Source of the DNA: Bacteroidales bacterium
Lineage (GTDB): Bacteria; Bacteroidota; Bacteroidia; Bacteroidales; UBA1556
Length of the DNA stretch: 38,407 bases
Assembly (NCBI GenBank): GCA_015493685.1
Contig: WGCS01000035.1
Coordinates: 1-38,407, forward strand
Reading direction: 5' to 3'
The notes below the pieces were generated by a model that was not told the DNA's origin, made no database searches, and saw only the letters and a program-made list of their open reading frames with translations. Shown one piece after another: positions 1,139-38,038 of the stretch; positions within the stretch are counted from its first letter, which is position 1, and each line of letters starts with the position of its first letter. Made by a program: the position numbers and the translations under genes.

Positions 1139-1746
1139 AGTATTAAGAATTAAATTAAGTACCATAATTATAAATGAGTCTGGTCTAAAATAAGGTCTTC
1201 GTTACCAAATTCTGCGTTGTCAAAAATTTTCAAATTCTCATTAACAATTAGTCAACTCCGGTTAAAAAATTTCTTCCTTCTTTATTTTAACAAAAACCTA
1301 CCTTTTTAAACTGCGCTCATAAATTGAAACACTAAAGATACTTTAGGTTTAGAGAACAAAGATACATAAAATTCCCTATTGTTATTCAATTAACATTAAA
1401 TAATTATAAAAACTAACTATTTTATAAAATCAGTGTCCGATTAAAATAGGAAGATGTAAATTTTTATCAACTAACCTTGCCTCTGTCAGTCTTAGCCTTA
1501 TAATTTGATTGCCGGAAATTTACGTCCTTTAAAAGTGAGGGAAAATAAATTATTGAAATTAACCCAATAGGAAAATGCAACTATACTTAAACCTCTAATA
1601 CCGGTTCAAATAAACTATCAATCCAAACCCAAAAAAGTCCAACCATTATAAGCGCTTACCATTTATCGGGTTGCTTTTGCCTTACAATTGGTTTGAAAAA
1701 ATTTCTATCAAAATTTACTATTCTCAAACGTTTTGGACGCCATTGG
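1139..1746. other. Gene-free stretch with a degenerate repeat copy
   Basis: About 600 bases without a credible gene. It holds a candidate minus-strand -7 box (1357-1364), a small palindrome CTAAAG-ATA-CTTTAG (1332-1346), and the left copy of the repeat described at 1470-1736. The rest is AT-rich with stops in all frames. Confidence 0.6.
1470..1736 (-). repeat. Left, truncated copy of a diverged repeat (ORF fragment plus non-coding part)
   Basis: Two parts match sequence at 3120-3355 in the same orientation. Bases 1648-1736 match the start of the 66-codon ORF at 3007-3207. Read on the minus strand, both share the residues DRNFFK and then IV, but this copy hits a TAA stop after about 25 codons. 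Bases 1470-1610 match 3212-3340, sharing CTCTGTCAG, ATTGCC..AATTTAC, AAATTATTG and ATACTTAAAC at the same spacing. The order differs: here, going along the minus strand, the ORF part comes before the non-coding part, while in the right copy it comes after. The two copies bracket the T9SS gene at 1747-2940. Confidence 0.6.
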
Positions 1747-2940
1747 CTAATTTTTAATAATCATTTTCGTCCCTATGCCCTCTTTCGTTGTTATACGAAT
1801 CAAATAACTACCCGAAGAATAGGCTTTTAGTGATAGTTTAAACTGATTTCCTGAGGTTTTAATTTGATTTAGTAACTTACCTGACACATCAAAAATAGCA
1901 ATCGTTTCCATTTCCTTTGCCTTAAGAATAACCCAATCGTCTGTCGGATTGGGATATAACTGAAAATCAATCGTATTATTTATTTCTTCTATTCCTTCGG
2001 GGTCGAATACCAAGCCAATCAAAGGGACAAAATTAATAAGACGAAGGGTGTCGTTAATAATAGCAACAGCTTCAGCGGGAAAATTATGATAGCAGGATGT
2101 ATCAATTAGCAAAGGTAGATTAGCAGCCATGCCAGAATCAAGACGAATGCCAACCATATAACTACTATCAGGATATAGAAATAAGGAATTATTTCCAAGA
2201 AAACCCTCCGAATTATACCATCCATTGTAATAAATGGAGCTATTAGTATCAATGGGAAAGGGCTGGTCAAAAAGCAAATGTCCATTAATATAAATATTAG
2301 TGGATATAGAAGTACTACTATCAATTCCGGTTAACATTTTTATTTTCATATATACCATCATATGCCCCCACCATTGATTAGAATCTCTGGGGACTTTAAA
2401 CTTGAAACCAAGAAAATCACCGGTGGAAAAACCGGGTAACAACGAATCATCAAAAACAGCATTCTCGTGAGTACTTCTGGAAACTGATCCCCACATATCA
2501 ACCCAAAGAAACATATTCGGTATACTGTCGTGGTTGTCAGCGGGATTTTGATCTACCGAATCAGAATAGAGGTTAAAAACAAGGGGAATACTATAATTCC
2601 AATAGCTGTTGTTGTAATTCTTGAAGCCTGGAATTGTTAACGTATCGGTTTGTTGGGGGGCCAAAGTAATGGTATCGGAAAAAAAAGCATATATCGTTTG
2701 CCTATTAATTGAAGTCTTAAATCGAAGGAAAACCCCCGTAGCGGTATCATTTCCATTATTTTTTACAATGGCTCCACAGTAAAAAGAATCAACTAAATCG
2801 TATAACATTTCGCTGTAACAGCCACCGTCGGGAGTGTTGATATTGATGAGTGGTTTAACTATTTTAACATCGTTATTGTATTGTGCAAAAGACATCAGGC
2901 TCGTTAAAAGCAGGACCATCAGGAGTAAAGTATTTTTCAT
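1747..2940 (-). CDS. Secreted protein with T9SS type A C-terminal sorting domain
   Basis: A 397-residue protein. Residues 1-19 form a typical signal peptide (LLLMVLLLTSLMSFAQ). The last ~75 residues form a type A T9SS sorting domain: FQLYPNPTDDW, then IFDVSGKL, then SSGSYLIRI and the terminal KMIIKN, matching the usual YPNP...DxxGK...G.Y.v.i pattern. The body (about 20-310) is rich in beta strands, Asn, Asp and Tyr. Its first part (25-135, with GAIVKNNGNDTATGVFLRF) looks like a CARDB-type adhesion fold; the centre is not recognised. The protein should be exported by Sec, then carried across the outer membrane by T9SS and either released or anchored, with the sorting domain cleaved. It stands alone between two copies of a repeat. 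No catalytic motif is visible, so an adhesive or structural role is an inference only. Confidence 0.85.
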   Translation of the reverse strand: MKNTLLLMVLLLTSLMSFAQYNNDVKIVKPLININTPDGGCYSEMLYDLVDSFYCGAIVKNNGNDTATGVFLRFKTSINRQTIYAFFSDTITLAPQQTDTLTIPGFKNYNNSYWNYSIPLVFNLYSDSVDQNPADNHDSIPNMFLWVDMWGSVSRSTHENAVFDDSLLPGFSTGDFLGFKFKVPRDSNQWWGHMMVYMKIKMLTGIDSSTSISTNIYINGHLLFDQPFPIDTNSSIYYNGWYNSEGFLGNNSLFLYPDSSYMVGIRLDSGMAANLPLLIDTSCYHNFPAEAVAIINDTLRLINFVPLIGLVFDPEGIEEINNTIDFQLYPNPTDDWVILKAKEMETIAIFDVSGKLLNQIKTSGNQFKLSLKAYSSGSYLIRITTKEGIGTKMIIKN

Positions 2941-3006
2941 AATCGTAGTATTTATTACTTAAAACAGTTGGGCAACTAAATTTCAGAGCATAAATATACG
3001 ACATTT

Positions 3007-3207
3007 CTACCGGGTTTCCACCTCAAATTTATCAAAAAACCAAAAAAGAACTCTCTGACTTACATTTTGAGGAGGAATTTCTTCCAATTCAGCTAAGTAA
3101 TTAAACCAATATCCAAGTCTAAGTGTAATAAGCCGTTTAATGTCTATCGAATTGCTTTGTCCTACAATCCTTTTGAAAAAGTTTCTGTCAAGTTTTACTT
3201 TTTTCAA
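3007..3207 (-). pseudogene. 66-codon ORF without an ATG start, part of a repeat
   Basis: The ORF can start only at TTG (3205-3207); an in-frame stop lies three codons upstream and no ATG precedes it. The peptide is basic at its N-terminus (KKVKLDRNFFKRIVGQ) and rich in aromatic residues at its end (VLFWFFDKF). I do not recognise it. A truncated relative lies at 1648-1736, and several of the differences between the copies fall at third codon positions, which hints that the sequence was once translated. Because it lacks a normal start and sits in a repeat, I treat it as a remnant or a repeat-borne ORF rather than a sure gene. It could still be a small expressed protein. Confidence 0.35.
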
Positions 3208-3211
3208 GGCA

Positions 3212-3355
3212 TCTTACCTCTGTCAGCTATGGTTTGATAAATTGGTTGCCAATAATTTACATCTATTGGAGCCAATGAAAAAGAAATTATTGGCAATTAA
3301 TTATAAAATGGGAAGCTAATAATACTTAAACTTCTACTAGTCATTAATTATATAG
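3212..3355. repeat. Non-coding half of the right repeat copy, with a perfect inverted repeat
   Basis: This segment matches 1470-1610. It contains perfect 13-bp inverted arms TTGCCAATAATTT (3246-3258) and AAATTATTGGCAA (3284-3296) around a 25-base loop. The loop itself holds a smaller palindrome, ATTGG-AG-CCAAT (3265-3276). The arms are poorly kept in the left copy. It lies between the 66-codon ORF and the sucC promoter. Confidence 0.6.
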
Positions 3356-3427
3356 ATTTAAGCATAAATCAAGTTATTTTATCGGAAAACAATGAATAAA
3401 TATAAATAATCATAGCAAAAAATATAC

Positions 3428-3435
3428 TACCTTTG
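3428..3435 (+). promoter_or_regulatory. Candidate Bacteroidetes -7 box for sucC
   Basis: TACCTTTG fits the TAnnTTTG -7 consensus and lies 49 bases before the sucC ATG. No convincing TTTG -33 element is seen at the usual distance. Confidence 0.5.
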
Positions 3436-3484: not shown

Positions 3485-4675
3485 ATGAATTTACACGAAT
3501 ATCAAAGTAAGAAGATTTTAAAATCTTATGGAGTATCGGTACCAAAAGGGTATTTGGCATATTCTCCTGAGGAAGCTGTAGAAGCAGCAAAAAAACTAAC
3601 CGAAGAAACAGGGCATGAAGTATGGGCGGTAAAAGCGCAGGTACATGCTGGAGGCCGAGGCAAAGGTGGCGGAGTAAAAATTGCAAAAACATTAGATGAC
3701 GTTCGCACATATGCCGACAATATATTAGGGATGCATTTGGTTACCCCTCAAACCAAGGCAGAGGGCAAACTGGTCCGTAAGATTTATATTGAACAAAACA
3801 TCTTTTATGATGGCCCTTCTGAAATGGCAGAATATTATATGAGTGTAATGCTACATCGTGACAGTGGTAAAAACATGATTATGTATTCACCACGTGGCGG
3901 AATGAACATAGAGCAAGTTGCTGCAGAAACTCCTGAATATATCTTTACTGAAATTATTGATCCTAAGGTAGGTCTGCTTCCTTTTCAAGCCCGTAGAGTA
4001 GCTTTTAATTTGGGACTAAGCGGAAAAGCTTTTAAAGAAATGACTAAATTTGTATCTTCACTTTACAAAGCTTATGTTGGCTCCGATTCCTCCTTATTTG
4101 AAATTAACCCTGTAGCCAAAACAAAGGATGACCTAATCTATGCTGCTGATGCAAAAGTTGCCATTGACAACAACGCTTTATATCGCCACAAGGACATTGA
4201 GGAGATGCGTGATTTTGACGAAGAAGACCCAACGGAAGTTGAAGCCGGAAAATACGATTTAAATTATGTGAAACTTGATGGAAATGTTGGCTGTATGGTT
4301 AATGGCGCAGGATTGGCCATGGCAACAATGGATATCATTAAAATGAGTGGTGGAGATCCAGCCAATTTCCTTGATGTAGGAGGAACCGCCAGTGCTGAGC
4401 GTGTAGAACAAGCTTTCCGTATTATATTACAAGATACTAACGTAAAAGCAATATTGGTAAATATTTTTGGCGGCATTGTACGTTGTGACAGAGTTGCCAA
4501 TGGTATTGTACAAGCTTATAAAAATATTGGAGATATCAATGTACCAATTATTGTTCGTTTACAAGGCACTAACGCCGAAGAAGGCAAAGACATTATTGAT
4601 GCTAGCGGATTAAAGGTATTCTCTGCCATAACGCTTGATGATGCTGCTAATATGGTAACTAAGGTGATGGCCTAA
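3485..4675 (+). CDS. sucC: Succinate-CoA ligase (ADP-forming), beta subunit
   Basis: SucC pairs with SucD to interconvert succinyl-CoA and succinate with ADP or GDP phosphorylation, in the TCA cycle or in succinate/propionate metabolism in the cytoplasm. The 396-residue length is normal for the family. The N-terminus (MNLHEYQSKKILKSYGV) starts the ATP-grasp domain. The segment VKAQVHAGGRGKGGGVK (about 49-65) is the nucleotide-binding loop. The C-terminal CoA-ligase domain shows FLDVGGTAS and IFGGIVRCDRVA, the family signature. The start ATG matches the conserved N-terminus exactly. No sucD follows; instead a strong terminator comes 36 bases after the stop, so the alpha subunit must be encoded elsewhere. 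A -7 box lies upstream. Confidence 0.96.
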   Translation: MNLHEYQSKKILKSYGVSVPKGYLAYSPEEAVEAAKKLTEETGHEVWAVKAQVHAGGRGKGGGVKIAKTLDDVRTYADNILGMHLVTPQTKAEGKLVRKIYIEQNIFYDGPSEMAEYYMSVMLHRDSGKNMIMYSPRGGMNIEQVAAETPEYIFTEIIDPKVGLLPFQARRVAFNLGLSGKAFKEMTKFVSSLYKAYVGSDSSLFEINPVAKTKDDLIYAADAKVAIDNNALYRHKDIEEMRDFDEEDPTEVEAGKYDLNYVKLDGNVGCMVNGAGLAMATMDIIKMSGGDPANFLDVGGTASAERVEQAFRIILQDTNVKAILVNIFGGIVRCDRVANGIVQAYKNIGDINVPIIVRLQGTNAEEGKDIIDASGLKVFSAITLDDAANMVTKVMA

Positions 4676-37835: not shown

Positions 37836-38038
37836 ATATATTTTTTCAAACAAATAATTTATTAAATTTATGGGCAAATTGAATTCAATTTTCTCAATAA
37901 TTTTATTTAAAAACATTACTGTCCAATAAAAATACAGAATACAAATATCAATGTATTTAACGATAAAGCAGTGCATTAAATTTATTAGCTCATTAATAAT
38001 CAAATTAAGTCCCATAAAACAAAAAAGTAAAGAATTTA
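37836..38038. other. AT-rich gene-free stretch
   Basis: No credible gene. A 60-codon minus-strand ORF here (37833-38015) is AT-driven, mostly Ile, Leu and Asn, and has no family features. Nothing else is seen. Confidence 0.55.

Follow-up and report, generated by a model that had tools for sequence, protein, structure and literature searches.

Truncated MITE copies and a separate direct repeat around an orphan T9SS gene in a Bacteroidales genome

How did an orphan T9SS gene upstream of sucC come to lie between two pairs of repeats whose order is swapped from one side to the other? The window that we analyzed, a stretch of 38,407 nucleotides, is contig C35 of a Bacteroidales genome of 3.4 Mb in 324 contigs. 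Around the gene are two direct-repeat pairs, X and NC (non-coding), which run NC-X on the left and X-NC on the right, with all copies direct. The X copies align with 73% identity over 94 columns and a score of 57, against a mean of 18.9 and a maximum of 30 in 500 shuffles (z 14). The NC copies (1462-1600 and 3199-3339) share 67% identity (z 11). An earlier note on this DNA had pointed out both pairs and their swapped order and had called the surroundings of the gene rearranged, and in this it was right. The same note combined the two parts into one small element. We find that the repeats are real but are two different things, copies of a MITE and a separate direct repeat, X. The features of the locus are as follows.

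1431-1604, plus strand: MITE copy 1 (left), without its right end; the family profile matches 1433-1604 at model positions 6-183 of 234 (E 4e-28), and the genome copies agree
1431-1448, plus strand: left terminal inverted repeat of MITE copy 1, CAGTGTCCGATTAAAATA; weight matrix score 19.3, pattern match with 2 mismatches
1635-1727, plus strand: X1, left direct-repeat copy (the left ORF copy of the earlier note); 73% identity to X2, z 14
1747-2940, minus strand: orphan gene, 397 aa, with a T9SS type A C-terminal sorting domain (PF18962, TIGR04183)
3007-3207, minus strand: 66-codon frame with a TTG start, unsupported as a gene by codon-position and shuffle tests and without a family match
3115-3207, plus strand: X2, right direct-repeat copy, from its alignment to X1; not detectably related to the MITE
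3204-3394, plus strand: MITE copy 2 (right), without its left end; the profile matches 3204-3393 at model positions 40-233 of 234 (E 6e-28)
3374-3394, minus strand: right terminal inverted repeat of MITE copy 2; weight matrix score 18.2

Searches of the host genome with either flank of the gene matched the NC part at dispersed sites but the X part nowhere else, and the flanks of the dispersed matches had common ends. One intact MITE used as a query gave 25 matches at E <= 0.001; the copies that we compared were gathered from such searches and from retrieved stretches, a set that may be incomplete, and some copies fall at the ends of contigs. Paired ends carry terminal inverted repeats (TIRs) of 21 bp, CAYTRYTGTCCGATAAAAATA. 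A scan with ATTGTCCGATAAAAATA, allowing up to 3 mismatches, found 150 matches, compared with 47 for the reversed control, and a tighter, near-exact pattern found 28 sites, compared with 0. When convergent ends were paired, most of the resulting elements measured 229-250 bp, the others being shorter or, in a few cases, longer derivatives; the family is short, multi-copy, and dispersed. The 9-mers flanking 24 elements (including the IS relic L099 described below) matched each other with a z of 7.6, whereas at 7, 8, 10, 11, and 12 bp the z was just 0.5 to 2.2. Flanks that agree this far beyond chance at 9 bp specifically are the hallmark of an element that transposed and duplicated 9 bp of its target. 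Two intact copies showed strong self-complementarity when folded (z -6.0 and -3.7) and had no apparent protein-coding frame, for which reason 'MITE' is the best name. We conclude that the NC part, judged by its sequence features, is a member of a dispersed, ORF-less MITE family, an ordinary kind of genome litter and not a new coding element.

Several related sites were seen along the way. A 1.1-kb stretch elsewhere in the host genome (L079 114-1237, contig C126) has the same TIRs, a 7/9 flank match, and no ORF of more than 63 codons inside, and could be either a longer non-coding relative or a dead IS. Near the contig end, at 37918-37934 of the window, is a TIR-like site, ACTGTCCAATAAAAATA, with 2 mismatches and no partner end in the window. 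A sibling genome, G006, has a related but much shorter TIR element of about 70 bp (L212, approximately 1497-1567) with the ends CAGTGTTGTCCGATAAAAAAA and CACTATTGTCCGTTAAGAATT. Its 35 TIR matches are almost all identical, TTGTCCGATAAAAAAA, a uniformity that suggests a recent burst in that species.

A MITE profile built from eight family members gave exactly two highly significant matches in the window, the two copies listed above. The non-coding part of about 140 bp in the earlier note is thereby confirmed, but the copies extend further, to TIRs at approximately 1431 and 3394. They are truncated members, with one end each and the inner, gene-facing end missing; the left TIR of copy 1 is also about 3 bases short of the consensus. 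The two copies are 69% identical to each other, compared with up to 77% and 75% to other members, and a recent local duplication of the MITE was rejected on these identities. The tree of MITE copies is star-like, and its longest end branches include those of the two window copies (0.23 and 0.22; median 0.10). Forcing them to be sisters cost 2.3 log-likelihood units, and the AU test did not reject this grouping (p 0.17). Because each window copy is closer to other members than to its counterpart, a local tandem duplication is unsupported, and from these comparisons we lean toward two independent, old MITE insertions.

The X part behaves differently from the NC part. It is 93-94 bp long, and X2 spans just 3115-3207 of the 66-codon frame at 3007-3207. 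As the earlier note had seen, the left frame is interrupted by a stop and TTG is the sole start of the right one. The many third-position changes from which it had argued for past translation did not survive a count: the 11 mismatches in the 52-bp ungapped part fall 3/3/5 by codon position (P = 0.25). The wider X alignment contains two single-base indels that break the frame, and 5.7% of dinucleotide-shuffled versions of the 544-bp intergenic stretch contained an ORF as long as 66 codons with an ATG, GTG, or TTG start. Together with the left stop, these results leave past translation without support. The note had also reckoned that many dispersed copies with a conserved 66-codon frame would mark an undescribed element. 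Copies of the non-coding part are indeed dispersed, as a MITE, but the 66-codon part occurs nowhere else in the genome and shows no evidence of having been translated, so that for the frame this expectation fails. A single two-part element is likewise unsupported, since no other MITE copy contains the ORF part.

Searches for relatives of X outside the locus gave little. No further copy was found anywhere in the host genome with either side as the query, and X1 had nothing convincing among 59 relatives. Searched against 295 order-level genomes, 3007-3207 had one match, of 50 bp and 84% identity, to window positions 3035-3084, outside the X repeat; a class-level search of 395 genomes added none. 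The matching DNA is intergenic, in a Bacteroidales MAG of another family (JALTEO010000064.1, L214/L215), and no ORF accounts for it. The viral contigs and plasmids searched contained nothing like X, and Rfam had no known RNA family in the window. Four identities for X were rejected: a degenerate end or internal stretch of the MITE (scores of the MITE against X1 and X2 at shuffle level, p 0.69 and 0.92, and a negative profile HMM), a fragment of the IS4-type IS or of the 1.1-kb element (p 0.45 and 0.13), a protein family (Pfam and NCBIfam both negative), and an attC-like folded site (folding no better than shuffles, z 0.3 and -0.1). On their alignment X1 and X2 are clearly homologous, and X is probably a scar left around the T9SS gene by a separate duplication or insertion.

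The product of the gene itself ends in a Por_Secre_tail sorting domain (PF18962, 45.6 bits, cut-off 27; TIGR04183, 45.8 bits, cut-off 23). In 59 other genomes its matches were to the sorting domain only, and a peptide-pattern scan across GTDB species, a method limited to close relatives, returned none. The base composition of the gene resembles that of its neighbors. No match to the Bacteroidota promoter pattern was found upstream of it or of sucC.

In the nearest sibling, G003, whose sucC is 95% identical, a zinc-ribbon gene and sucC are direct neighbors 304 bp apart, and the interval contains no MITE, no X, and no T9SS gene. In the window the same two genes (zinc-ribbon gene at 722-1165, sucC at 3485) are 383 bp apart when 1431-3394 is left out. 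Homology with five siblings restarts at 3387-3408, beside the right TIR, and the left boundary is blurred, as 1166-1430 aligns weakly with the sibling. Because the nearest sibling lacks both the repeats and the gene between the same neighbors, the block was probably gained in the host lineage, with loss in the sibling formally possible. The end of the right TIR lies some 34 bp upstream of a TACCTTTG-like motif that precedes sucC (window 3394-3435), in a short stretch that is also conserved in siblings. By position, the insertion may touch the sucC promoter.

What could have moved such MITEs? The host genome has several IS4-type DDE_Tnp_1 matches. One of them belongs to an IS4-family IS relic (L099 981-2268, contig C221) with DUF4372 and DDE_Tnp_1, its transposase frame broken by an internal TAA, and it has CATTACTGTCCCATTAAAATC-type TIRs at its boundaries, together with an 8/9 direct repeat. 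Several subgroups of the IS4 family have ends that start with CA or CAT and direct repeats in the range of roughly 8-13 bp (PMC2266710). Because of the ends and direct repeat of L099 and these published ends and repeat lengths, the MITEs likely belong to the IS4-type group, an assignment that links them to an IS4 transposase through partial similarity of ends: those of L099 and of the MITEs are similar, not identical. No intact partner IS with exactly the MITE ends was found.

We propose that two old MITE insertions lie beside an orphan T9SS gene that sits between its own short direct repeats, and we consider this account probable. MITEs mobilized in trans by an IS4-family DDE transposase recognizing their TIRs would have inserted long ago, in the same orientation, one on each side of the gene, and their inner, gene-facing ends would then have decayed. 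The gene would have lain between its own 93-94 bp direct repeats as an X-gene-X unit, and the swapped repeat order would follow from two independent insertions beside that unit. Independent insertion does not by itself explain why both copies are equally old, point in the same direction, and lack the inner end, and two MITE insertions leave the origin of X unexplained. The MITEs at this locus have no demonstrated function.

Mobile insertion cassettes carry a cargo gene between transposon ends and no transposase, and the outer TIRs at 1431 and 3394 could be read as the two ends of one such element, 1.96 kb long and non-autonomous, with the T9SS gene as cargo. An IS4-type cassette of this sort, mobilized in trans, would have moved the orphan gene into the region upstream of sucC. 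The outer TIRs form an inverted pair that converges as the ends of a single element would, the inner ends are missing, and the T9SS gene lies alone inside, with no transposase. The absence of the block from the sibling and the five-sibling restart of homology beside the right TIR also fit. However, the outer 9-bp flanks match at 4/9 positions, compared with an average of 3.8 for re-paired flanks, so that no target duplication is evident; there is no second copy of the block in the host genome; and the two MITE copies share 144 positions of the model, in direct order, an overlap that a simple cassette would not need. On balance we regard a cassette as unlikely. If it were true, MITE-bounded cassettes would be a route by which lineage-specific surface proteins spread in Bacteroidales.

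A further possibility concerns X only and is compatible with two MITE insertions: a circular or plasmid-borne X-gene unit could have recombined into a resident X, independently of the MITEs, leaving X-gene-X. There is a direct repeat at both edges of the 1.48-kb gene unit, in a region absent from the sibling, but X does not fold as a structured attC site would, the unit contains no recombinase gene, and a tandem duplication followed by loss of one gene copy would look identical. We give this event little chance. The tandem model of the earlier note, a local duplication of a two-part element, X plus the non-coding part, into whose array the T9SS gene was placed, seems slightly less probable still: the two repeat pairs show similar divergence (identities of 73% and 67%), both in direct orientation, and a common origin of the MITE copies was not rejected by the AU test, but no other MITE copy carries X, each window copy is closer to other members of the family than to its partner and the tree does not group the two, and the swapped order requires an additional step of loss or replacement.

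The analysis resolves a puzzling repeat into MITE litter and a local direct repeat, and it cleanly defines, by ends, target duplication, and copies, one MITE family within a Bacteroidales genus. Unless the cassette reading can be demonstrated, the broader interest is small. The family resembles bacterial MITEs of the IS4-family type in being short, ORF-less, TIR-bounded, and dispersed and in having target duplications roughly one helix turn in length; it differs in that both copies in the window are truncated and in that we found no intact partner IS whose ends are exactly these. The block as a whole resembles mobile insertion cassettes in having a cargo gene between transposon ends and no transposase, but differs in its lack of a target duplication and of a second copy and in its internal duplicated segment. 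One such cassette, MIC231 of Bacillus cereus, is cited in PMC6542083. MITEs have also been reported from another member of the Bacteroidetes, Porphyromonas gingivalis (PMC4596501).
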